From positions 1-35,005 of the forward strand of contig NZ_CAMDRA010000018.1 of NCBI RefSeq assembly GCF_945906275.1: DNA of 35,005 nucleotides, in the 5' to 3' direction. Origin of the DNA: Dongia mobilis. GTDB lineage: Bacteria; Pseudomonadota; Alphaproteobacteria; Dongiales; Dongiaceae. Position 1 is the stretch's first letter. Every line of letters begins with the position of its first letter. The translations under genes and the position numbers were made by a program. The notes under the pieces were generated by a model, which was given only the letters and a program-made list of their open reading frames with translations, was not told the DNA's origin and did no database searches. Below are positions 6,228 to 31,522 of this stretch, piece after piece.

Positions 6228-7814
6228 TTACCAGCGCGTGTTGCCAGGGCGCATGTCCGCGGCGCCAAGGCGAATGGGAAAACGGTCGCGCAAGGCGGCA
6301 TCGCGCGCTGGATCGATATGATCCGGGTAATGCTGCGCCATGATCTTCTGCACCGCTTTGTGCGCCGTCGCGATGATTTCCGGTGCGCCGCGGTATTCCC
6401 ATTCCGAGAGCGATGTGCGGTCGGCCACTTTCGGATAGAGGAATTCCGATTGCATGAGGCTCAGCGTCTGCGGGCTACCGAGGTAATGGCCGGGTCCCAT
6501 CACCGTCTCGCGGATGGTCTCGAAGGACAAGGTTTCGTCATTGACCTCGATCCCGCGCAAGGCGCGTTGCACGGCGCCAAGCAGGTCGTTGTCCAGCAGC
6601 ATCGCTTCGAGAGAACAGCCGAGCAGGCTGCCCATCATGCCCGCGCATTCGCCGATCATATTGCTGCCGGCCATGGCGCTGAGCGCGATGGTGAGGCCCT
6701 TTTCGTACCCCGCCTGGTAGTCCGGCCGCTTCGCATCGGTCATGCCGGCGGCGACGATGCCGGGCAGGCCGTAGAAGCGCGCAATCTGGCCGGCCGCCGC
6801 CTGCAACACCGCTTCCTCCCCACTGCCGCCGGTGAAGGCGCCGGTACGGAGATCAGCCACGAAAGTCCAGGGGCCGAAATCGACCGGGCTGCCGGGCCGT
6901 ATCAGATTGACGACCACCACGATGGCGATGGCCTCGGCGGTGCATTGCGCCAAGGCGCCGGCGAGGGCAGCGGGTGCTGTCGCCCCGGCCTGGGGCGCGG
7001 TGCAAGCCGAAATGGGGAGGCCGCGCCGGGCCGCTTCAATCAGCACCGCCGTGGTATCAGGCCCAAAGCGCAAGGGCGAGACCACCGGGCAGAGGCCGAT
7101 GGCGGCGAAAGGCGCCTTGGCGAAGGCACCCTCGGCGCCCAGCACCGTGTCCCAGACGTCGATCACATCGGCCACCGTGCTGGGATCGGCCAGCGACACG
7201 CTGAACGGCTTGGTGGTCCCGGCCGCCCCGGCATAGGCGATGTTGATCGCATGCAGGCGCGAATCTTCGCAGATATCGTTGGCGATCACCGTCTGGCCGC
7301 AGAAATCGATATGGTCGAGATAGTCGGCCATGCGGAAGAAATCATAGAGATCGACCAGGGTCGACGGGCGATAGGCGCCGGTCAGCGCATCGACCACGCG
7401 CACCGCCTCGCCGGAGGTCGCAAAGAAGACCCGGTTGCCGCCACTATGGACATCCTGGCCCGGCTTGCGGCCGTGATAGAAGATTTCCTTCGCGGCCAGT
7501 CCGATCATCTCCTCGACCAGGCCGCGCGGGAAAAGCAGCCGCCCTTCCGGGCTCATGCGGCAGCCCTTGGCGCAGGCAAGCTCGATGAGGTCGGCCGGCG
7601 CCTGGCCCATGCCGATCTTCTCGAGGATGTCGAGTACGGCGGCGTGGATGCGCGTCATGTCCAGATCGCTCAAGGGCCGGTAGGTGCCGCCGGGCAGGCC
7701 CGGGCGCACGGCGCTGGATTTTCCCGCAGTCTGCCTTGCGATCACCCGGGCATGGCGCCCGCCGGCCAGGCCATGACTCGCGTGGCCCGGCACGGTGATT
7801 TCAGCGACTGTCAT
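6228..7814 (-). CDS. Trimethylamine methyltransferase (MttB) superfamily protein, non-pyrrolysine
   Basis: A member of the MttB superfamily, TIM-barrel enzymes that move a methyl group from a quaternary or tertiary amine to a corrinoid protein. The C-terminal block (HYPDHIDPARDAALRDRF) and the Gly-rich core around EECAGMMGSLLG-type sequence fit the family. The frame is open throughout with no in-frame amber codon, so it is the non-pyrrolysine type; known relatives act on glycine betaine, proline betaine or carnitine. I start it at ATG 7814 because GGAGG lies five bases upstream (7820-7824, read on the minus strand); an ATG at 7826 is also in frame. The predicted length is 528 residues. No corrinoid protein or corrinoid-dependent partner is encoded nearby. 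It is divergent from a BetI-like TetR gene, its likely regulator. Confidence 0.88.
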   Translation of the reverse strand: MTVAEITVPGHASHGLAGGRHARVIARQTAGKSSAVRPGLPGGTYRPLSDLDMTRIHAAVLDILEKIGMGQAPADLIELACAKGCRMSPEGRLLFPRGLVEEMIGLAAKEIFYHGRKPGQDVHSGGNRVFFATSGEAVRVVDALTGAYRPSTLVDLYDFFRMADYLDHIDFCGQTVIANDICEDSRLHAINIAYAGAAGTTKPFSVSLADPSTVADVIDVWDTVLGAEGAFAKAPFAAIGLCPVVSPLRFGPDTTAVLIEAARRGLPISACTAPQAGATAPAALAGALAQCTAEAIAIVVVVNLIRPGSPVDFGPWTFVADLRTGAFTGGSGEEAVLQAAAGQIARFYGLPGIVAAGMTDAKRPDYQAGYEKGLTIALSAMAGSNMIGECAGMMGSLLGCSLEAMLLDNDLLGAVQRALRGIEVNDETLSFETIRETVMGPGHYLGSPQTLSLMQSEFLYPKVADRTSLSEWEYRGAPEIIATAHKAVQKIMAQHYPDHIDPARDAALRDRFPIRLGAADMRPGNTRW

Positions 7815-7865
7815 CGGATCCTCCATCGCAACTGTCGGCTAAATCCTCTGTCTTTGCATGGTAAT

Positions 7866-7897
7866 TGTCAATATAATTGTATGAACATTCATTCATA
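7866..7897. promoter_or_regulatory. Divergent control region with TATAAT and an 18-bp inverted repeat
   Basis: The 120 bases between the MttB-like and TetR genes are much richer in A+T than their surroundings. They contain a perfect TATAAT (7872-7877, plus strand) placed to drive the TetR gene. Next to it is an inverted repeat TATGAA-N6-TTCATA (7880-7897); a shorter one, ATGAA-CA-TTCAT (7881-7892), shares its left arm. The position, overlapping or just downstream of the -10 box, would suit autorepression by the TetR protein and control of the methyltransferase gene. No convincing -35 box was found for either direction. Confidence 0.45.
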
Positions 7898-7934
7898 ATT
7901 TGACTTGCGGATCTGCATCGCCGATGCTGGCGAT

Positions 7935-8618
7935 ATGGAAAATGTCGACTCACAGGCTGAAAAGGCGCGGTGGCGCGGCCGGGCCAAGCCCCAGGCGGCG
8001 GAAGCCAAGCGGGCCCAGCGCCAACAGCAGCTGATCCTGGCTGCCATCGACTGCATCAGCCGCAAGGGCATCGGCGATACCACTGTCGCAGATATCGCGC
8101 GCGTGGCCGATATGGCGGTGGGGTCGATCACGCAATATTTCACCGGTAAGGACGCCCTGTTCTCGGCGGCCTTGCAGCAGATGGCCCAGGAATTCGAAAC
8201 TGCCTGGCGCGCCGACATGGCCCTCGCCGGCACCCATGACGCGGCTGCGCGGCTGCGCGCCTTCCTGCTCGCCTATTTCCGTGCCGATGTCTGCCAGCGC
8301 AAGAAGGTCGCGGTCTGGTTCGCCTATTGGGGCGAAGTGCGCGCCCGCCCGCGCTACCGTGCCATCTGCGCCGAATTCGATTTGGTGCATGACACCATGC
8401 TGCGCGACCTCTGCGCCAGCCTGATCCAGGAAGGCGGCTATGCGGAGCTCGATCCGGCCCGCACCGCCAAGACTCTGGCGGCGCTGGCGCAGGGTCTGTG
8501 GCTAGAGCATCTTACCGGCAGCGACGGCCTTTCGCGTGACGAATTGTCTATGCACGCGCTCCTGGGCCTGCGCGCGCTCTTCCCGCACGATGCGGATGCC
8601 TTCGCGGACCCAGCTTGA
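7935..8618 (+). CDS. TetR-family transcriptional regulator (BetI-like)
   Basis: A TetR-type repressor. The N-terminal helix-turn-helix is clear (QQLILAAIDCISRKG, then TTVADIARVADMAVGSITQYF, about residues 28-72), followed by a ligand-binding domain with the WFAYWGEVRARP stretch found in BetI-like proteins. I start at ATG 7935 (227 residues); a TTG at 7905 is in frame but less likely and would overlap the candidate operator region. It is divergent from the MttB-family gene and probably controls it, sensing a substrate such as a betaine or choline-like compound; the ligand is an inference. A second protein with the same architecture and the same WxxxWGE motif is encoded at 29370-30011. Confidence 0.9.
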   Translation: MENVDSQAEKARWRGRAKPQAAEAKRAQRQQQLILAAIDCISRKGIGDTTVADIARVADMAVGSITQYFTGKDALFSAALQQMAQEFETAWRADMALAGTHDAAARLRAFLLAYFRADVCQRKKVAVWFAYWGEVRARPRYRAICAEFDLVHDTMLRDLCASLIQEGGYAELDPARTAKTLAALAQGLWLEHLTGSDGLSRDELSMHALLGLRALFPHDADAFADPA

Positions 8619-22132: not shown

Positions 22133-23614
22133 TTACGTGTTCCGCAGACTCAGCGGATAGAGCGTCTTCGGTGCGTGCTTGAAATTGTAGTGGTCAAGCG
22201 TCACCCCCGCCGGTCCCGGCGCATCGCATTCGATGATGGCGCGGGTGAGCGGCGTGAAGCCGGCGCGGAAATGATTCTTTGCCTTCACGCAGAGCAGGCC
22301 GACCTTGGCAAGGTCGATGCCGTGCAAGGTGAAGTAGGCCGGATCATGCGGCGTCTGGCAGGAGGTGGTGACGATCACCTTGATGCCTTCGACCTCGAAC
22401 AGTGCCGTGTTGCCGACATCGACGGCAAGATTGTTCTCATAGGGGCCGACATTGCGGAACTTGCCGTCGGTGAGCGCCAGGACCTTGGCGCCGATGCGCA
22501 CCGGGGCGCCGAAAATCGAGGTGACGCGGCCACCGAAGGCGACATCCAGCGTGGCACCAATACCAGCGAGCCGCGCTTCGGCCACCAGTTCCGGATCCCA
22601 GAAGAAGGCGAAGACGCAAGGGACTGGCGGTCTTGCATCGAGCAATGCACGAAACAAGGTGGGCGTGTCGCCGATCCCGCCGGAAAGCGGGTTGTCGGCG
22701 GGATCCGTGATCGCCGCGGGCTTCTCGCCGGGAAGGGCCAGCGCCTGTGCGATGGCCTCACTGGGTGAGGGCGGCCTGGCTTCGAAGCGCGCCTGCCTTG
22801 CCGCCATCTCCGCCGCCAGGGCATGTGCCGCGCGCTGCGCCAGCATCCGGTCGCCATCGGTGAACACCATGGCGGTCGGCCCGGCAAAGGGGGAATCGCC
22901 ATAGGCAAAGCCACCGAACACGGTCGCTTCCAGGATGCCGGGCTCGGCGCGCCATGCGGCCGCCAGCTTCGCCATTTCGGCCATCGGCCCATCGGTCGTG
23001 CGCATGTTGAAACTGGTATAGATCGCCGGCACCTTGGCGATGGCGCCGACCGGCCTGATCTGGCCTTCGGCGAGCGCTGTCAACAATTCCAGGGCGCGCG
23101 CCGCCGTTGCATCCATGTCGATATGTGGATAGGTCTTGTAACCAGTGGCGACATCGAGGAGCGCGATCATCGCCGGGCCGATATTGGCATGAAGATCGAA
23201 GCTGGCGGCGAGCGGCGTCTTGCCGATGATCACCCGCACATCCTCAAGAAGTTCCAGTTCCGGCGTCGGGTTGCCGCAGGTGACCATGGCGCCATGCAGC
23301 GACAGATAGACAGCGTCCCACTTCTGCTGCTGCAGCCCATCGAGGATATCGGCGCGGATGGCGGCATAGGCATCGTCGGTCACTGGCCCGCCGGGCGGTG
23401 CCGCAGCGCAGCGCAGGTAGGTCACCTCCCAATCGGGATGCGCCTCGGCAAAGGCGATGACGGCGCCGATTTCAGTGGCCGTATTGCGATAAAGCGTAAC
23501 CGCCGCGTCGCCCACGGCCCATTCGCGCGCCTGGAAGATATCAAGGCCGGTGGTGATGGGAGAGAAGGAATTGCCCTCATACCACAGCCGCGCAACCGCC
23601 AGCTTCTTCTTCAT
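22133..23614 (-). CDS. M81-family (MlrC-like) metallopeptidase
   Basis: A member of the M81 / MlrC family, named from the linear-microcystin-degrading peptidase of sphingomonads; most relatives in other bacteria have unknown substrates. Typical features are the N-terminal ARLWYEGNSFSP (usually xxxxHETNTFSP), SLHGAM, FDLHAN and TYPHIDM. The DLH and HID residues are the likely metal ligands. ATG 23614 is chosen because it places the conserved first strand at the N terminus (493 residues); the frame is open to 23680 with further ATGs. It has no signal peptide. It converges on the ribokinase gene (3 bases between stops) and is divergent from the flavoprotein gene, so it could belong functionally to either. 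Confidence 0.9.
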   Translation of the reverse strand: MKKKLAVARLWYEGNSFSPITTGLDIFQAREWAVGDAAVTLYRNTATEIGAVIAFAEAHPDWEVTYLRCAAAPPGGPVTDDAYAAIRADILDGLQQQKWDAVYLSLHGAMVTCGNPTPELELLEDVRVIIGKTPLAASFDLHANIGPAMIALLDVATGYKTYPHIDMDATAARALELLTALAEGQIRPVGAIAKVPAIYTSFNMRTTDGPMAEMAKLAAAWRAEPGILEATVFGGFAYGDSPFAGPTAMVFTDGDRMLAQRAAHALAAEMAARQARFEARPPSPSEAIAQALALPGEKPAAITDPADNPLSGGIGDTPTLFRALLDARPPVPCVFAFFWDPELVAEARLAGIGATLDVAFGGRVTSIFGAPVRIGAKVLALTDGKFRNVGPYENNLAVDVGNTALFEVEGIKVIVTTSCQTPHDPAYFTLHGIDLAKVGLLCVKAKNHFRAGFTPLTRAIIECDAPGPAGVTLDHYNFKHAPKTLYPLSLRNT

Positions 23615-23757
23615 CGCACCGGTTTCTTCTTCATTGCATCTGACAGTCATTCCCACGATCAGGCCCACGAACAGGGACAAAAATTAGCCTATGGGGCGGC
23701 TTGCGTCCATCTCCCACCCCCGTCTAAAGTCCGGCCAACATCAGGCAGGGGGAAAAG

Positions 23758-25824
23758 ATGGCCCGCGACCCACGTTACGATATTCTGTTCGAACCGGTGA
23801 AGATCGGGCCCGTGACCGCCCGCAACCGCTTCTTCCAGGTGCCGCATTGCAACGGCATGGGCCATCAGCATCCCCAGGGCCATGCCGCCATGCGGGGCAT
23901 GAAGGCCGAGGGCGGCTGGGCGGTGGTGGCGACCGAGGAATGCGAGATCCATCCGTCCGGCGATGTGACGCCCTATGTCGAGGCGCGCATCTGGGACGAT
24001 CACGACATTCCCTATCTTTCCATGATGACCGAAGCCGTGCATTGTCACGGCTCGCTGGCGGCGGTCGAGCTTGTGCATAACGGGCCCAGCTCATCCAACC
24101 TCTACAGCCGCGAAGTGCCGATCGGCCCCAGCCACCAGCCGACCAATTACTATCCGTTCCAGGCGCGCGCCATGGACCGGGAGGATATCCGCAACTATCG
24201 CCGCTGGCACCGCGACGCGGCCGTCCGCGCGAAGAAAGCCGGCTTCGATATCGTCTATGTCTATGCGGGTCACGATCTTTCCTTGCCGATGCATTTCCTG
24301 CAGAAGCGGCGCAACCAGCGGACCGACGAGTATGGCGGCAGCCTCGAGAACCGCGTGCGCCTGTTCCGCGAACTGATCGAGGAGGCGAAATCGGCCGTGG
24401 GCGACACCTGCGGCATCGCCGTCCGTTTCGCGGTCGAGGAGATGATGGGCGATGACGGCGTCTCGATCGAGGGCGAGGCGAAGGACATCGTCGCCATGCT
24501 GGCCGATCTGCCCGACCTCTGGGACGTCAACCTCTCCAACTGGAAATATGATTCCCAGACCTCGCGCTTTGCCGAAGAAGGCTATCAGGAACCCTTCACG
24601 GCCTTCGTGAAGAAGTTGACCAGCAAGCCCGTCGTAGGTGTGGGGCGCTATACCTCGCCCGACCGCATGGTGTCGCTGATCAGGAAGGGTGTGCTCGACA
24701 TGATCGGCGCCGCCCGGCCGTCGATCGCCGATCCCTATCTCCCGAAGAAGATCGAGGAAGGACGGATCGAAGACATCCGCGAATGCATCGGCTGCAACAT
24801 CTGCATCACTGGCGACATGACCATCACACCGCTCCGCTGCACGCAGAACCCGACCATGGGCGAGGAATGGCGCAAGGGCTGGCATCCTGAGATCATCCCG
24901 GCCAAGGCGTCCAATGACCGCGTGCTCATCGTCGGTGGCGGTCCAGCCGGCCTCGAAGCCGCGCGCGCCCTTGGCCTGCGCGGCTATGAGGTGGCGCTCG
25001 CCGAAGGCTCGACGGAGCTCGGCGGCCGCGTGAACAAGGAATCGCGCCTGCCCGGCCTCTCCGCCTGGGGCCGCGTGCGCGACTATCGTCTGGGCCAAAT
25101 TGGCAAGATGAGCAATGTCGACACCTATCTCGACAGCCGCATGACGGTCGCCAACATCCTGGAACAGGGGTTCGAGCGCGTGGTTCTGGCAACCGGCTGC
25201 CATTGGCGCAAGGACGGGGTGGGTCGCTCCCACGCCCGCGCCATTCCGGGCCTCGACGGCGCCAATGTCTTCTCGCCCGACGACATCATGGAAGGCCGCC
25301 TGCCGCCCAGCGGCACGGTCCTGGTCTATGACGACGACATGTTCTATCTCGCTGGTGTGCTGGCGGAAAAGCTCGCCAAGGCCGGTCTCGACGTCGTCTA
25401 TGTGACGCCGGGCGATACGGCATCGAGCTGGACCGCGAACACACTCGAAGTCCTCTTCATCAACAAGCGCCTGCGCGCGCTTGGCATCCGCGTCATCACC
25501 GCCCATGACCTCGTCGAGGTGAAGGCCGGCGTGGCACAGCTCGATTCCGCCTATGGCGAGAAGCCGCATTTCATCGCCATCGACGCCGTAGTGCCGGTAA
25601 CAGCACGCCTGCCGGAAGAGGCGCTCTATCACGCCCTGATGGCCAATCCCAATGCACTCAAGGATGCCGGCATCAAATCGGTGACCCGCATCGGCGATTG
25701 CCTCGCCCCCGGCCTCATCGCCTACGCCGTCTATGCTGGTCACCGCTATGCGCGGGAACTGGATACAAACGACACCAACGAAGTGAAGTTCCGGCGACCG
25801 CTGCCGATCATGGCGACGTCGTAA
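23758..25824 (+). CDS. TMADH-family Fe-S flavoprotein amine dehydrogenase (histamine dehydrogenase-like active site)
   Basis: A 688-residue flavoprotein of the trimethylamine/dimethylamine/histamine dehydrogenase group, which oxidises an amine and passes electrons to ETF or another acceptor. Domains in order: Old-Yellow-Enzyme barrel (1-340), 4Fe-4S ligands Cys343, Cys346, Cys349 and Cys361, then an FAD/ADP-type Rossmann domain (VLIVGGGPAGLEAAR). Cys31 in QVPHCNG matches the cysteine that binds FMN covalently in TMADH. Tyr169, His172 and Asp265 match its catalytic residues. The substrate cage differs: TMADH Tyr60 is Glu61 and Trp355 is Asp353, while Trp264 is kept as Trp262. An Asp at the last position is a histamine dehydrogenase trait. 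Some relatives act on N-methylproline, so the substrate is open. A purine-rich stretch (GGGGGAAAAG) precedes ATG 23758. No ETF genes are nearby. Confidence 0.9.
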   Translation: MARDPRYDILFEPVKIGPVTARNRFFQVPHCNGMGHQHPQGHAAMRGMKAEGGWAVVATEECEIHPSGDVTPYVEARIWDDHDIPYLSMMTEAVHCHGSLAAVELVHNGPSSSNLYSREVPIGPSHQPTNYYPFQARAMDREDIRNYRRWHRDAAVRAKKAGFDIVYVYAGHDLSLPMHFLQKRRNQRTDEYGGSLENRVRLFRELIEEAKSAVGDTCGIAVRFAVEEMMGDDGVSIEGEAKDIVAMLADLPDLWDVNLSNWKYDSQTSRFAEEGYQEPFTAFVKKLTSKPVVGVGRYTSPDRMVSLIRKGVLDMIGAARPSIADPYLPKKIEEGRIEDIRECIGCNICITGDMTITPLRCTQNPTMGEEWRKGWHPEIIPAKASNDRVLIVGGGPAGLEAARALGLRGYEVALAEGSTELGGRVNKESRLPGLSAWGRVRDYRLGQIGKMSNVDTYLDSRMTVANILEQGFERVVLATGCHWRKDGVGRSHARAIPGLDGANVFSPDDIMEGRLPPSGTVLVYDDDMFYLAGVLAEKLAKAGLDVVYVTPGDTASSWTANTLEVLFINKRLRALGIRVITAHDLVEVKAGVAQLDSAYGEKPHFIAIDAVVPVTARLPEEALYHALMANPNALKDAGIKSVTRIGDCLAPGLIAYAVYAGHRYARELDTNDTNEVKFRRPLPIMATS

Positions 25825-26675: not shown

Positions 26676-27953
26676 TCAATCCGACATTGGCTTGGCGCCG
26701 ACATGGGGCATGTGTTCGCCGCGCGGGTCGAGTTCGGGGGCGCCATAGGCGCCCTGCACGGCGGGGACGGCGACGTAGTTGTTCTGCTCTTCCGGCGTCT
26801 TCGCCTTGCGCCTAAGCACGCGGTAGAGCGCGAAGGCCACGATGAGGCCATAGCCGCAGCCGACGAACAGGAACAAAGCGCGCGGCCCCAGCTCATGCAT
26901 GGCGATGCCGGCCAGTGACGGGCCGATTGAAGCGCCGAGGCCCCAGGCAAAGAGCAGGCCGCTGGAGGCCGCGACGAAATCCTTCCGCGCGATGTAATCG
27001 CTGGTCTGGCCGATGCCCAGCGCATACAGCGGCGACTGGAAGGCCGAGAGCAGGAAGAAGATCACCAGCAGGAAAATATAGGGCATCTCCGGCGTCGCAT
27101 AGACCATCAGGCACAGCAGCGCCGAGGCGGTCACCGTGCCGATGATGATCGGTCGTCTGCCATGGACGTCCGCCGCATGGCCGATCGGGAACTGGGCGAT
27201 GAGGACCGCGATGGTGCCGATCAGCAGCAGGAAGGAAAGCTCCCGCTCGCCCATCGCCATCGCATCGACGAAGGCCGGCAGCAGGCCATAGAGCGAGCCG
27301 TTGAGGAAGCCGGCGCCGAAACAGCAGACAACGCCCAGCGGCGATATCTTGAACAGGCGCCGCAGGCTGAGATGGGTATGTTCGCTGATGACCGGGTTGC
27401 CTATCTTGGTGAGGCCCAGCGGGATCATCGCGCTGGCGAGGCACAGCGTGCAGAAGGCAAAGAGCAGGATGCCGGTCGGATCCTCGACATTGAGCAGCAA
27501 AGGCGAGATGCCGGAAGCCCCCCAGCTCACCGCGGTATAGATCGCGAAGATGCGGCTCCTTGTCTCGTCGGTCGATTTGTCGTTGAGCCAGGATTCGATC
27601 ACCACGAAGCCGCCGGCCAGCGAGAATCCGGCGATGGCGCGCAAGCCGATCCAGAAATAGGCATCCTGGATGACGAGGTGCAGCACGGTGGCGTCGGCCG
27701 CCAGCACCACGAACACGCCGAAGGCACGGATATGCCCCACCCGGCGGATGATGCGCTGGCAGACCACGGTGCCGGCGAGGAACCCCACGAAATAGGCCGA
27801 GGCCGCGACACCGACGACGATCTCGGAGACGCCCCAGCGCGCCAGCTGGATACCGATGAGCGGCATCAGAATGCCCAGCGCCACGTCGATCAGCGTGATG
27901 CCGATGAGGACCGGCAGGACCGGCTGCGTGGTGCGCCAGATCGCCTGAAACAT
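26676..27953 (-). CDS. MFS transporter, YcaD-like
   Basis: A 12-helix major facilitator, 425 residues. The N-terminal half begins with hydrophobic LPVLIGITLIDVALGILMPLIGI and carries FIVG-type packing and the ESWLNDKS segment seen in the YcaD-like branch of MFS. The loop between the two middle helices of the C-terminal half has the MFS signature GHAADVHGRRP. The tail is cytoplasmic and hydrophilic. ATG 27953 is set by GGAGG five bases upstream; a TTG in front of it is in frame but unlikely. It is flanked on both sides by copies of the 91-bp repeat. It follows the Rieske, TetR and acyl-CoA dehydrogenase genes on the same strand and may move their substrate or product, but its own promoter is likely given the 207-base gap. 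Confidence 0.9.
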   Translation of the reverse strand: MFQAIWRTTQPVLPVLIGITLIDVALGILMPLIGIQLARWGVSEIVVGVAASAYFVGFLAGTVVCQRIIRRVGHIRAFGVFVVLAADATVLHLVIQDAYFWIGLRAIAGFSLAGGFVVIESWLNDKSTDETRSRIFAIYTAVSWGASGISPLLLNVEDPTGILLFAFCTLCLASAMIPLGLTKIGNPVISEHTHLSLRRLFKISPLGVVCCFGAGFLNGSLYGLLPAFVDAMAMGERELSFLLLIGTIAVLIAQFPIGHAADVHGRRPIIIGTVTASALLCLMVYATPEMPYIFLLVIFFLLSAFQSPLYALGIGQTSDYIARKDFVAASSGLLFAWGLGASIGPSLAGIAMHELGPRALFLFVGCGYGLIVAFALYRVLRRKAKTPEEQNNYVAVPAVQGAYGAPELDPRGEHMPHVGAKPMSD

Positions 27954-28053
27954 CAAAACCTCCGAAAAGCCGCCAGAAACCCGGCCAGAAACCCCGGCGG
28001 GACTTTAGAGGGTCGACAGGTCGTTTGGCTAGGGGAAGGCCATTTTTCTCGAT

Positions 28054-28160: not shown

Positions 28161-29345
28161 CTATTCCACCACCGCCACACCGCGCTTCAGCAGGCCGTTG
28201 GCGATGATCACGCGCTGGATTTCGCTGGCTCCTTCCCAGATGCGGTCGACCCGGAGCTCGCGGAAGAAGCGCTCGGCCACGTTTTCCCGCATATAGCCGC
28301 GGCCGCCGAAGATCTGCACGGCGCGGTCGGCGACGCGGCCGGCCATCTCGCTGGCATAGAGCTTGGCCATGGCGCATTGCGCATGCGCCGTCTTCAGGTC
28401 GGACCCTTCATCGATGGCGCGGGCGGTCTCATAGGTCATGAGGCGTGCCGCGAACAATTCGGTGAGGGAATCGGCCAGCATGAACTGTATCGCCTGCTGC
28501 TCGGCCAAGGGCTTCCCGAAGATGATGCGCTGTTTGGCAAAGGCGGTCGCTTCCTCGATGAGGCGCTCGGCCGCCCCGCAGCAGCGCGCGGCGATCATGA
28601 GGCGCTCGTGGCGGAACCAGGCATAAGTGAAGCCCATGCCGTCGCCTTCCGCGCCGATGCGGTTCTTGCGCGGCACGCGCACATCGGTGAAGCGGTAGAT
28701 CGGGTGATGCGCCCGGTAATTATGCGTATAGGCAGGTGTCCGGACGATCTCGACGCCGGGCGTGCCCTGGTCGACGAAGAAGAGGGCATGGGCGCCCTTG
28801 TTGGGTCCGTCGGCGATCTTGGCCTGGAAGAACATGAAGTCGGCGAGGTTGGCGCTGGTCACATGCCATTTCTCGCCGTTGAGGATGTAGTGATCGCCCT
28901 CTCCCCCGCTCACCAACTGGGCGGTCGACTGGATGGCGTCGACATCCGATCCGGCTTCAGCTTCCGTGATGGCATAACATTCATGCCGCGCGCCGGTCAT
29001 CAGCGGCTTGATCAAACGGTCGATCTGCTCGGGCGAACAGGCTTCCAGCATCCATTTCTGCGGGTTGTTGGCGCACCAGCCCAGCGCATTGGTGACGCGG
29101 CCGGTCTGCTCCTGCGCCACCGCCTGTTCCAGCGTCGTGTAACCGCGCCCGCCCATGCTCTCCGGCAGGTCCATGTTGTCGAGGCCCGCCTCCTTGGCGC
29201 CGGCCTTCATGCGTGTCCAGACATCCTCCGGGACCAGCCCGTCATGCATTTCGGCGTGCACTTCCCAAGGGATCAGTTCGGCATCGACAAAGGCGCGCAC
29301 ACGCGCCTGGATCTCGCGGGCGCGGGGTGGCAAGGGCATGGTCAT
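28161..29345 (-). CDS. Acyl-CoA dehydrogenase family flavoprotein
   Basis: A 394-residue FAD enzyme of the acyl-CoA dehydrogenase family that introduces a 2,3-double bond in an acyl-CoA and hands electrons to ETF. Motifs: ECYAITEAEAGSDVDAIQ (FAD/substrate loop), KWHVTSANLADF, RQRIIFGKPLAEQQAIQ-type helix (here KQRIIFGKP), QIFGGRGYMREN, and RIWEGASEIQR with the likely catalytic Glu. ATG 29345 has GGAGA six bases upstream. It lies 24 bases after the TetR gene and is probably cotranscribed with it and the Rieske oxygenase gene. The acyl substrate is unknown; relatives in such clusters act on branched or betaine-type acyl-CoAs. Confidence 0.93.
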   Translation of the reverse strand: MTMPLPPRAREIQARVRAFVDAELIPWEVHAEMHDGLVPEDVWTRMKAGAKEAGLDNMDLPESMGGRGYTTLEQAVAQEQTGRVTNALGWCANNPQKWMLEACSPEQIDRLIKPLMTGARHECYAITEAEAGSDVDAIQSTAQLVSGGEGDHYILNGEKWHVTSANLADFMFFQAKIADGPNKGAHALFFVDQGTPGVEIVRTPAYTHNYRAHHPIYRFTDVRVPRKNRIGAEGDGMGFTYAWFRHERLMIAARCCGAAERLIEEATAFAKQRIIFGKPLAEQQAIQFMLADSLTELFAARLMTYETARAIDEGSDLKTAHAQCAMAKLYASEMAGRVADRAVQIFGGRGYMRENVAERFFRELRVDRIWEGASEIQRVIIANGLLKRGVAVVE

Positions 29346-29369: not shown

Positions 29370-30011
29370 TCAAGCGGCGGCGTTGCCGTTGGCAGCCGCA
29401 ACCTTGCCGCCGAATTCGCGTGGGAAGAGGCCGGCGAGAAAGGCGCGGACGCTGGCCTTGGCCGTGTCGCGGTCGGTCTGCTTGGGATTGAGCAGCATGT
29501 CGAGCCACAGCCCGTCGATCATGGCATTGAAGCCGCGGGCGATGAGGCCGGCATCGAGCCCTTCATAACCGCCTTCATCGATCAGTGCCTGGAAGGTCTC
29601 GGTCGTGGCGATCTGGAACGAGGTCGAGAGGTCGGCGCAGAGTTTCAGGAATTCCGGGCGCCAGCGGGTCTCGCCCCAGAAGGCGTACCAGACGGTGACC
29701 TGCTTCCGGTTGGCGTGGGTCCGGGCGAAATCCGCCTCGATCATGGCGTCGAGCTGGGCTGCGGCCGATTTCCCGGCCTTGGCCAGGATAGCCTGCATGT
29801 GCTGCTCGTAATCCTCGACCAGATGCTTGAAGGTCGCGATGAGGAGCGCGTCCTTGCTCTTGAAATAGAAATTGACGATTCCGACCGAGAGGCCGGCTTC
29901 CTGCGCCACGTCGGCGATCTTCAGCTCGGTAAAGCCCTTGCGGGCAATCCCGTCGATCGTCGCTTCGATGAGCTGCCGGCGCCGGGCCTCCTTGGCCAAT
30001 TCGCGGCTCAT
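29370..30011 (-). CDS. TetR-family transcriptional regulator (BetI-like)
   Basis: A 213-residue TetR-type repressor. The helix-turn-helix is RRQLIEATIDGIARKGF followed by LKIADVAQEAGLSVGIVNFYF (about residues 10-50). The ligand domain has VTVWYAFWGETRWRPEF, the same motif as in the regulator at 7935-8618 and in BetI. I start at ATG 30011, with AAGGGA upstream; the frame extends to 30059 but the extra residues are not family-like. It sits between the Rieske oxygenase and acyl-CoA dehydrogenase genes on one strand, so it is probably autoregulated. An 18-bp palindrome upstream of the Rieske gene (31407-31424) is a candidate binding site. Confidence 0.92.
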   Translation of the reverse strand: MSRELAKEARRRQLIEATIDGIARKGFTELKIADVAQEAGLSVGIVNFYFKSKDALLIATFKHLVEDYEQHMQAILAKAGKSAAAQLDAMIEADFARTHANRKQVTVWYAFWGETRWRPEFLKLCADLSTSFQIATTETFQALIDEGGYEGLDAGLIARGFNAMIDGLWLDMLLNPKQTDRDTAKASVRAFLAGLFPREFGGKVAAANGNAAA

Positions 30012-30076
30012 GCCTTGTTCCCTTTCGGGCGGCAGAACCGGCCAGTGGTTGACGCGCATGCCGGCTGGGCCTTCGC

Positions 30077-31312
30077 TCAGGCCGCCGACCGGCTCGTCTC
30101 CCGCAAGGCGTCATTGCGCCGCCGCAATGTCCCGGCCGCCGGCGCCCGCACCTCGTTCACCACGGGGCAGGCTGCCCGAATCCGGTCATGGAAATCTACC
30201 ACCGCATGCTCGTAATTGGAAAGCGGCCCCGGCTCATAGCCGTGGGACCCCATGCCGAGCTGGACCCGCTCGCACAATTCCCGGTCCTCGGCCCCGACCT
30301 GGCGGTTGATGCGGGCGTTCAAATACTGCATCGCCTTCAGCTCCCGGCTGGCACCCTGGTCCTTGGCGGGGCGCACATAGATGGGATAGCGCATGACGCA
30401 GGTCTCGCCCCCCATGGGCAGGATCTGGAAGATGTCGAAGCTGTCCGGATAGATGTCGAGGCCGATATTCGGCGCCATGGAGAAGAAGGTCCAGGTCTTG
30501 CGCACATCGGCCGGCAGGTCCCGAAGCGCGTCCTTGGCGAGGTGCTGGTACATCCGCTCGGCCCGGTTGGCCGAGGGAATGCCCTTCAGGACACTCTTGC
30601 TGTAGGCAACGCCATGCTGGTTGATCACCCCGGTCAGATCACTGTCCAGCATCCGGTTGAGGCCGGGATGCCCGATCGGCACATGGTAGTTCTCGAGATT
30701 GTTGTCGACCGCGATCTTCCAGTTGCAGTTCCAGCTGTCGATCCAGACCGGACCGCCCGGCACCATTTCCTCAAGATTGTAGCCGGCGATGACATCGGCC
30801 ATGTCGCCGAAGCTCTCGCGCAAGGACGGGCCGCCCGGCACCACGCGGGTGAACACCATGCCGGCGAGGATCTCCATCTCGACTGGCTTCAGGCCGAGTT
30901 GCTCCTTCTCGATGCCGGGGAAGGTCTTTTCCGCGGGCACGCCCTTCAATTCGCCGTTGAGGTCGTAGCTCCAGCCATGATAGGGGCAGGTAACGCGCGC
31001 CTTGCAATGGCCGCTGCCGTCGAGGAGCTTCGCCGCGCGGTGGCGGCAGACATTCATGAAGGCGCGCAGCACCTTGTCCTTGCCGCGCATGACCAGGATC
31101 GAATCGCGCTTGAGGTCCAGGGTCGCATAATCGCCGGGCTTGGCCACTTCCGAGATGTGGCAGACGAACTGCCAGCTGGGCAGGATCAGGTTCTCGTACT
31201 CGATGTCGATCAGCTCGTCGCTGGTATAGGCCCAGGCCGGCAGGCTCACAGCCAAGCCCCCATGCACATCCGACCGCGCCGTCTGGTTTTTGATTTGATC
31301 GATCATCGTCAT
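30077..31312 (-). CDS. Rieske non-heme iron oxygenase alpha subunit, choline/carnitine/betaine-oxygenase-like
   Basis: The catalytic subunit of a ring-hydroxylating-type oxygenase. The Rieske cluster ligands are Cys89 and His91 (CRHR) and Cys109 and His112 (CPYHGW). The mononuclear iron site has His210 and His215 (ENYHVPIGH), and the residue that bridges electrons from the Rieske centre is Glu207, where most family members have Asp. Glu at this place is known from the carnitine oxygenase CntA; together with two BetI-like regulators this suggests oxidation of a quaternary or N-methylated amine. The length, 411 residues, fits. ATG 31312 (MTMID) is followed by a second ATG at 31306. No reductase gene is nearby, so electrons must come from a partner encoded elsewhere. 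Confidence 0.92.
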   Translation of the reverse strand: MTMIDQIKNQTARSDVHGGLAVSLPAWAYTSDELIDIEYENLILPSWQFVCHISEVAKPGDYATLDLKRDSILVMRGKDKVLRAFMNVCRHRAAKLLDGSGHCKARVTCPYHGWSYDLNGELKGVPAEKTFPGIEKEQLGLKPVEMEILAGMVFTRVVPGGPSLRESFGDMADVIAGYNLEEMVPGGPVWIDSWNCNWKIAVDNNLENYHVPIGHPGLNRMLDSDLTGVINQHGVAYSKSVLKGIPSANRAERMYQHLAKDALRDLPADVRKTWTFFSMAPNIGLDIYPDSFDIFQILPMGGETCVMRYPIYVRPAKDQGASRELKAMQYLNARINRQVGAEDRELCERVQLGMGSHGYEPGPLSNYEHAVVDFHDRIRAACPVVNEVRAPAAGTLRRRNDALRETSRSAA

Positions 31313-31406: not shown

Positions 31407-31424
31407 ATTGAATGATGGTTCAAT
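31407..31424. promoter_or_regulatory. 18-bp palindrome resembling a BetI box
   Basis: ATTGAATGATGGTTCAAT is an inverted repeat with perfect six-base arms and a six-base centre. From memory it is close to the site bound by the choline-responsive repressor BetI (ATTGA...TTCAAT). It lies about 95 bases upstream of the Rieske gene and just upstream of the candidate promoter, and the operon encodes a BetI-like TetR protein. Direct copies of TATATGAA also occur on the minus strand between here and the promoter. Confidence 0.45.
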
Positions 31425-31522
31425 CAAAATCAAAGAAAATCAAGGACTTGGCCGGGCAGTCCTAAGGTGCCGGGGAAAAGGCGGGATTTAAGTGGGTGGG
31501 GTGGGGATTGGGGGCGTCAAGG

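Follow-up and report, generated by a model that had tools for sequence, protein, structure and literature searches.

The gene at positions 30077-31312 of the window (the whole stretch of 35,005 nucleotides analysed here) raises the question of whether the residue joining the two metal sites of an oxygenase can reveal its substrate. A glutamate at this bridge was reportedly first described for CntA, and the preliminary description of this DNA pointed to Glu207 (LENYH) as the same unusual trait, proposing a related oxygenase with another quaternary-amine substrate. The gene does encode a Rieske oxygenase alpha subunit, as that description had it, and it lies on the minus strand, which had not been given, as the first gene of its operon. 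The genome assembly comprises 3.72 Mb in 271 contigs, and the nearest named relatives of the 411-residue protein are from an uncultured Dongia (84% identity) and Dongia mobilis (72%).

Pfam recognised a Rieske domain (78 bits) and a Ring_hydroxyl_A domain (124 bits), both above cut-off. By alignment, the Rieske ligands C89/H91/C109/H112 and the 2-His-1-carboxylate iron ligands H210/H215/D343 are all present. Residue 207 is a Glu within NNLENYH, three residues ahead of the first iron-ligand His210, and aligns with CntA E205, confirming at the level of alignment that Glu207 occupies the bridging position. The gene product is thus presumably an active Rieske non-haem iron oxygenase. An AlphaFold monomer model (pLDDT 86.4, pTM 0.87) had CntA as its closest structure in Foldseek (5.5e-29), and the VIA-align Z scores for CntA (34.0), Stc2 (33.5) and terephthalate dioxygenase (TPADO; 33.5) were tied, indicating that the fold does not settle the substrate. 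The best PDB sequence match was also CntA (128.7 bits). No NCBIfam model cut-off was reached by the oxygenase, and assignment to CntA or GbcA by library score was dropped for that reason; a scan of the whole window against Rfam gave no family at or above its gathering score.

Glutamate at the bridge proved to be common. It occupied this position in 67 of 77 sequences of a first homologue set (Asp in the other 10) and in 69 of 83 rows of a tree that included references (Asp in 14; at least six changes along the tree), counts in which the window oxygenase's side of the family is over-represented because both homologue sets were collected with it as the query. Glu is also found in Stc2, the TM1040 protein and five GbcA-like enzymes, and all four aromatic references have Asp. 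Within the oxygenase's own clade of 48 rows, 36 carried Glu and 12 Asp, and orthologues with 56-57% identity (L071, L073 and L074) read LDNYH. The residue is therefore not the unusual trait that the preliminary description took it for, and its frequency in the tree means that it is not diagnostic of CntA. Since both acids occur inside one clade, Glu at the bridge is no pointer to carnitine chemistry either, and its value as a sign of CntA-type chemistry is further lowered by the absence of CntA-specific features. As far as sequence comparison goes, the bridging glutamate is real, common and changeable, and is no marker of carnitine chemistry. A tempting marker is thereby removed. According to PMC7948474, the E205D and E205Q variants of CntA lost activity; orthologues that naturally carry Glu or Asp, with 56-57% identity, are well suited to asking whether the length of the acid matters.

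We placed the oxygenase by phylogeny. The 116 oxygenase rows collected came to 96 once duplicates were removed; for the 83-row tree (IQ-TREE), 19 more near-identical rows were omitted, and CntA and YeaW were brought back as references together with six others that were new. The window oxygenase fell in a clade of 24 rows (support 100/100, branch 0.78) that contained none of the characterised enzymes used as references. CntA and YeaW formed a neighbouring clade, joined to that of the window at only 91/73, and Stc2 and the GbcA-like enzymes formed another clade, apart from the window oxygenase. HcaE, BenA, AndAc and the p52 alpha subunit had a clade of their own (100/99), so that the window protein is not inside an aromatic-ring dioxygenase clade, in keeping with the preliminary description. 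When 24 more relatives were added and 8 long-branch rows omitted, a 99-row tree made by a quick method enlarged the clade to 48 rows (SH-aLRT 100) and did not resolve its sister group.

Clade members (E 1e-62 or better) were present in all 17 genomes of the family searched, which were also every genome of the order in the set, and orthologues with at least 57% identity in 14 of these. Across 385 genomes drawn from the class, 20 held clade members, five of them from the genus of the window, its own genome counted. Trp at window-oxygenase position 274 was found in 48 of 48 clade rows and the CxxC pair in none, and position 205, equivalent to CntA 203, was Asn, Tyr, Phe or Asp. This variability makes a single substrate across the whole clade unlikely, as judged from the aligned residues. 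We found no biochemistry for any clade member, and nothing on this Rieske clade was among the literature matches listed. The enzyme type is known, the clade lacks a characterised reference, and the palindrome and neighbours described below yield short, testable substrate lists and candidate partner genes for this clade.

The residues around the predicted active site differ from those of CntA. Asn205 stands at the position of CntA Tyr203, Asn208 and Val211 replace the pair Cys206/Cys209, and only one of the six other carnitine-pocket residues (Y225, F258, N270, Y295, Y315 and F319) appears to be kept, Y309 being aligned with Y295. CntA Asn270 aligns with Asp286 of the window oxygenase, and Asp was found there in 22 of 24 clade rows; an acid in this place would make sense if it faced a cation. 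Group V is split, in PMC7948474, into Va with an aromatic residue at 203 and Vb with Asn, and PMC10952381 describes the Cys pair as unique to some group V enzymes.

The oxygenase gene heads a run in one direction, all on the minus strand. It is followed after 17 bp by a BetI-like TetR regulator (29370-30059; PRK00767 132.7 bits against a cut-off of 118, TIGR03384 130.3 bits against 201.3), after another 24 bp by a protein of the acyl-CoA dehydrogenase family (28161-29345; WEGASEI motif; best NCBIfam model AcrC, 204.9 bits against 640) and after another 204 bp by an MFS transporter (26676-27956; PRK03633-like, 149 bits against 361). These are the neighbours that had been named earlier, and no reductase gene was found among the neighbours scanned. 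Because a BetI-type sequence does not fix the ligand of the regulator, it counts to that extent against an amine reading.

On the plus strand, at 23758-25824, PDB comparison and motifs identified a flavoprotein of the histamine/trimethylamine dehydrogenase (HDH/TMADH) family. It matched histamine dehydrogenases at 819 bits (3k30; residues 6-682) and 818 bits, TMADH at 568 bits and the 2,4-dienoyl-CoA reductase FadH at 139 bits. Its best NCBIfam models were of the old-yellow/FadH type and below cut-off, and such an identity was dropped after the PDB comparison (819 against 139 bits). The protein contains PHCNGMG and CIGCNIC, which we take to be the flavin-Cys motif and a 4Fe-4S-type motif. No match joining histamine dehydrogenase with a Rieske protein was among the literature matches listed. 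An MlrC-type (M81) metallopeptidase gene (22133-23680) adjoins this gene in the window and is kept in L006, L009, L010 and L104.

A palindrome, TTGAATGATGGTTCAATCAA, lies at 31408-31427, 95 bp ahead of the oxygenase start codon, and is a putative operator. When six upstream regions of the Dongia-type locus were aligned, it fell in one of the best-conserved blocks, other blocks being conserved too. The number of sites expected from shuffling was 0.00 for the 20-mer (three mismatches or fewer) and 0.03 for the general form (two or fewer). The general form, TTGANTGANNNNTCANTCAA, with up to two mismatches was present at 17 of the 44 clade loci and at 2 of the 27 controls, and the reversed motif at none of either. 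By eye, the sites at clade loci lie ahead of the oxygenase, ahead of its TetR or between divergent neighbours. We take the palindrome to resemble known BetI sites; literature searches on this likeness returned no match.

The genome of the window has seven palindrome sites and none for the reversed control. Five stand at this operon, a second HDH/TMADH homologue, two MttB-family genes and an MFS gene. The second site in the window (7877-7896; general form, two mismatches) is between an MttB-family gene (trimethylamine/glycine betaine methyltransferase family; 6228-7826, minus strand; TIGR02369 347 bits against 525; glycine betaine methyltransferase 9yce 193 bits), a possible member of the same regulon, and the gene for a second BetI-like TetR (7905-8618, plus strand; TIGR03384 95.4 and PRK00767 88.7 bits, both below cut-off). 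On contig C13, one site (4548) is about 24 bp ahead of the start used for the second HDH/TMADH homologue, which is 52% identical to the first and matches histamine dehydrogenase at 636 bits, and another (8625) is ahead of the second MttB-family gene, with a crotonyl-CoA carboxylase/reductase gene on its other side. This MttB-family gene (L201, 8663-10162) scored 238 bits against the TIGR02369 cut-off of 525. Site C141:7116 lies between the MFS gene (product 34% like that of the window) and a gene without a Pfam match, and two sites have no clear sense, C64:6302 and C233:796, the latter inside a reading frame beside GcvT. The simplest reading of these sites would be a methylated-amine regulon.

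Conservation of the locus was followed across relatives. The gene order ABC-PsuK-PsuG-oxygenase-TetR-acyl-CoA dehydrogenase-MFS, with the HDH homologue on the other strand, recurs in four loci of this Dongia type (L006, L009, L010 and L104) and, as far as its contig extends, in L005. Three further genomes, G016, G015 and G004 (L106, L107 and L109), keep the partners: their acyl-CoA dehydrogenases are 67-72% and their TetR proteins 56-58% identical to those of the window, as are the HDH homologues of G016 and G015 (66-68%) and the MFS proteins of G015 and G004 (49-59%). Their oxygenase is just 39-43% identical and lies between TetR and the dehydrogenase, not ahead of TetR, and L168 and L192 resemble this arrangement. 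A tree constrained to unite the oxygenases found at this locus, six of the window type and those from G004, G015 and G016, was rejected by the AU test (p 1.42e-06; 28 rows); the group to be constrained had been picked after the identities were seen. Outside Dongia-type loci, the oxygenases most closely related to that of the window are accompanied by a different TetR or none, and in a 12-row tree the nine acyl-CoA dehydrogenases of this locus grouped at 100/100, without a resolved internal order. The AU rejection and the retention of the partners with a dissimilar oxygenase argue that relatives have exchanged the oxygenase at this locus; either type could have replaced the other.

To see how far the neighbours go with the clade, we counted them at 36 clade loci and at control loci with other oxygenases, the latter being the 27 of 44 (L012-L055) longer than 15.5 kb. 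The clade count omitted the window, other Dongia-type or solitary copies and short contigs (L005-L009, L011, L100, L169-L171, L173, L177, L179 and L185). As the query proteins were taken from clade loci and related loci lack independence, each of which favours the clade, the p values serve as guides only for a TetR like that of the window (17 of 36 clade loci, 1 of 27 controls; p 0.00014), for any of an HDH homologue, a CrtI-like or a DAO flavoenzyme (18 and 3; p 0.0013) and for an acyl-CoA dehydrogenase of the window type (9 and 0; p 0.0076). The HDH/TMADH homologue alone was not significantly commoner (10 of 36 against 3 of 27; p 0.13), nor were CrtI-like proteins (7 and 1), PotABCD (8 and 2) or aminotransferases (3 and 3). 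Where control loci had an HDH homologue (L016, L021 and L022), they held ECYHC oxygenases, indicating that such a partner is not confined to the clade. A "flavin amine oxidase" label from Pfam at other clade loci was dropped, as the best PDB matches were phytoene desaturases.

None of the scored neighbours was found at clade loci L101-L103, L105, L184, L186 and L187, and several orthologues, those of L101-L103, are solitary. In L101-L103, whose oxygenases have Asp at the bridge, the palindrome is kept ahead of the oxygenase and no TetR of the window type was found alongside; biotin genes follow, BioB and BioA being over cut-off in L102 and the same families present in L101 and L103. In L058 (9956-15222), an EGYHV and an ECYHC oxygenase from different clades are encoded in a single cluster, together with PotABCD, a class III aminotransferase, an HDH/TMADH homologue and GcvT-type genes, and some partners of this kind stand beside the ECYHC oxygenases of L016, L021 and L022. 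Two contigs of alphaproteobacterial metagenome-assembled genomes carry clusters of three (L012, 6678-10301) and four (L014, 6313-12971) different Rieske oxygenase genes.

The genome of the window yielded no CntB-like reductase, and the same was true of G013 and G014, each a single contig. In this search, G016 gave three matches of 7e-56 or better (best 3.9e-60), and there were weaker matches in G002 (2.2e-15), G007 (7.2e-13), G003 and G005. The lack of a CntB-like reductase suggests that the oxygenase is probably an orphan that borrows electrons from elsewhere in the genome. That genome has one PF00175 match, in a 270-residue protein taken as an Fpr-type reductase, twelve Fer2 matches and one Reductase_C match beside a ferredoxin. 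The last belongs to a row on contig C98 (L138, 204-3070) consisting of a glutamine-synthetase-like gene, a 2Fe-2S ferredoxin and a Reductase_C ferredoxin reductase, a possible general electron supply for the Rieske oxygenases of this genome. Orthologues of the C98 reductase are present in 13 of 17 family genomes. As a fixed electron partner the cluster was rejected, since by eye none lies near a listed clade oxygenase, and it is therefore a candidate only.

An amine role for the oxygenase is likely. Our main reading, to which we give a probability of about 0.5, is that the protein is an orphan oxygenase, from a clade lacking a characterised reference, which acts on a cationic and probably N-methylated amine by dealkylation or cleavage and is under the control of a BetI-like regulator. 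From the preliminary proposal this retains the amine, which fits the HDH/TMADH-type dehydrogenase, the BetI-like regulator and the palindrome shared with MttB-family genes; the substrate is worded more broadly than a quaternary amine. When the amine is absent, the BetI-like TetR from the same operon would sit on the palindrome before the oxygenase gene and keep the operon off, and the amine or a relative of it would release the repressor. The oxygenase would then use O2, draw its electrons from a ferredoxin and a ferredoxin reductase whose genes lie elsewhere in the genome, and hydroxylate the carbon next to the nitrogen of the amine, with loss of a methyl group (as formaldehyde) or of the C-N bond. 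The less substituted amine would pass to the histamine/trimethylamine-dehydrogenase-type flavoprotein, the acyl-CoA dehydrogenase may process the carbon skeleton at a later step, and the MFS protein may move substrate or product.

A betaine N-demethylase like GbcA or Stc2, with the same chemistry reached in another clade, is a doubtful alternative. Asn205 matches the Asn of group Vb as it is given in PMC7948474, and the genes that carry the same palindrome, of MttB and HDH/TMADH type, would suit such an enzyme. However, the window oxygenase scored 143.8 bits against the cut-off of 670 for the GbcA equivalog NF058607, lies outside the GbcA/Stc2 clade and has no CxxC pair, and its close relatives have Tyr at 205. 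No genome exceeded the GbcA cut-off in a search of 58 from the class, and 30 had a weaker match; the GbcA-like rows in our tree are accordingly not proven to be GbcA.

Hydroxylation of an aromatic or other neutral compound, the amine-type neighbours being unrelated, is unlikely. The fold scores do not separate the oxygenase from TPADO, and some clade loci (the seven named above) are without any scored neighbour. Against this, the protein lies outside the clade of aromatic references and has Glu where all four of these have Asp, no beta-subunit gene was found among the neighbours scanned, and the palindrome is common to MttB-family and HDH/TMADH-type genes.

Three of 46 loci examined, from two families, suggest another relation between regulator and enzyme. 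In L176 (7540-9474, plus strand; 644 residues), L185 (2755-4776, minus strand; 673 residues) and L191 (7748-9862, plus strand; 704 residues), a BetI-like TetR, a linker and the oxygenase form an apparent single frame. The fused frames may reflect assembly error; if they are real, regulator and enzyme belong together physically. Fusions suspected in L109 and L168 from their long oxygenase frames were not seen when the frames were checked. It is conceivable, if quite unlikely, that oxygenase and BetI-like repressor act as one touching unit in which substrate binding or redox state sets transcription, the window protein being an unfused Rieske-based amine sensor-enzyme. In L191, Glu replaces the first iron-ligand His, as would be expected of an oxygenase turned sensor domain.

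Very unlikely is a strict carnitine (or choline) oxygenase with CntA-type C-N cleavage and a substitute for CntB: the sequence and fold matches to CntA, the weak sister relation of the two clades (91/73) and the adjacent BetI-like regulator favour it, but the oxygenase is in a separate 100/100 clade whose sister relation did not resolve with more rows, its pocket differs at Tyr203, both cysteines and five of the six other residues, its genome yielded no CntB-like reductase, and another protein of that genome (L002; ECYHC, Phe at 203) is in the CntA clade and is the better carnitine candidate.

Compared with known systems, the window oxygenase shares with CntA/YeaW (group Va) the Rieske and iron ligands, Glu at the bridging position and the overall fold. 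It differs in its separate clade, Asn for Tyr203, the missing CxxC, other pocket residues, another operon and the lack of a CntB-like reductase in the searches made, and is not a CntA. With the Stc2/GbcA type (group Vb) it shares the bridging Glu, Asn at the CntA Tyr203 position and, for Stc2, a tied fold score; it differs in having ENYHV rather than ECYHC, in lying outside that clade and far under the GbcA cut-off, and in having no reductase gene among the neighbours scanned. The regulator resembles the choline repressor BetI in its TetR_C_6 domain, a PRK00767 score above cut-off and an AT-rich palindrome ahead of the operon, but it falls below the stricter TIGR03384 cut-off and sits in an oxygenase operon. 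The HDH/TMADH homologues of L058 and L108 depart from the 23758-25824 protein in the residues that follow the iron-sulphur motif. TMADH has a Trp at this position, and the histamine dehydrogenases have GD in the stretch after the 4Fe-4S-type motif, as does the flavoprotein of the window.
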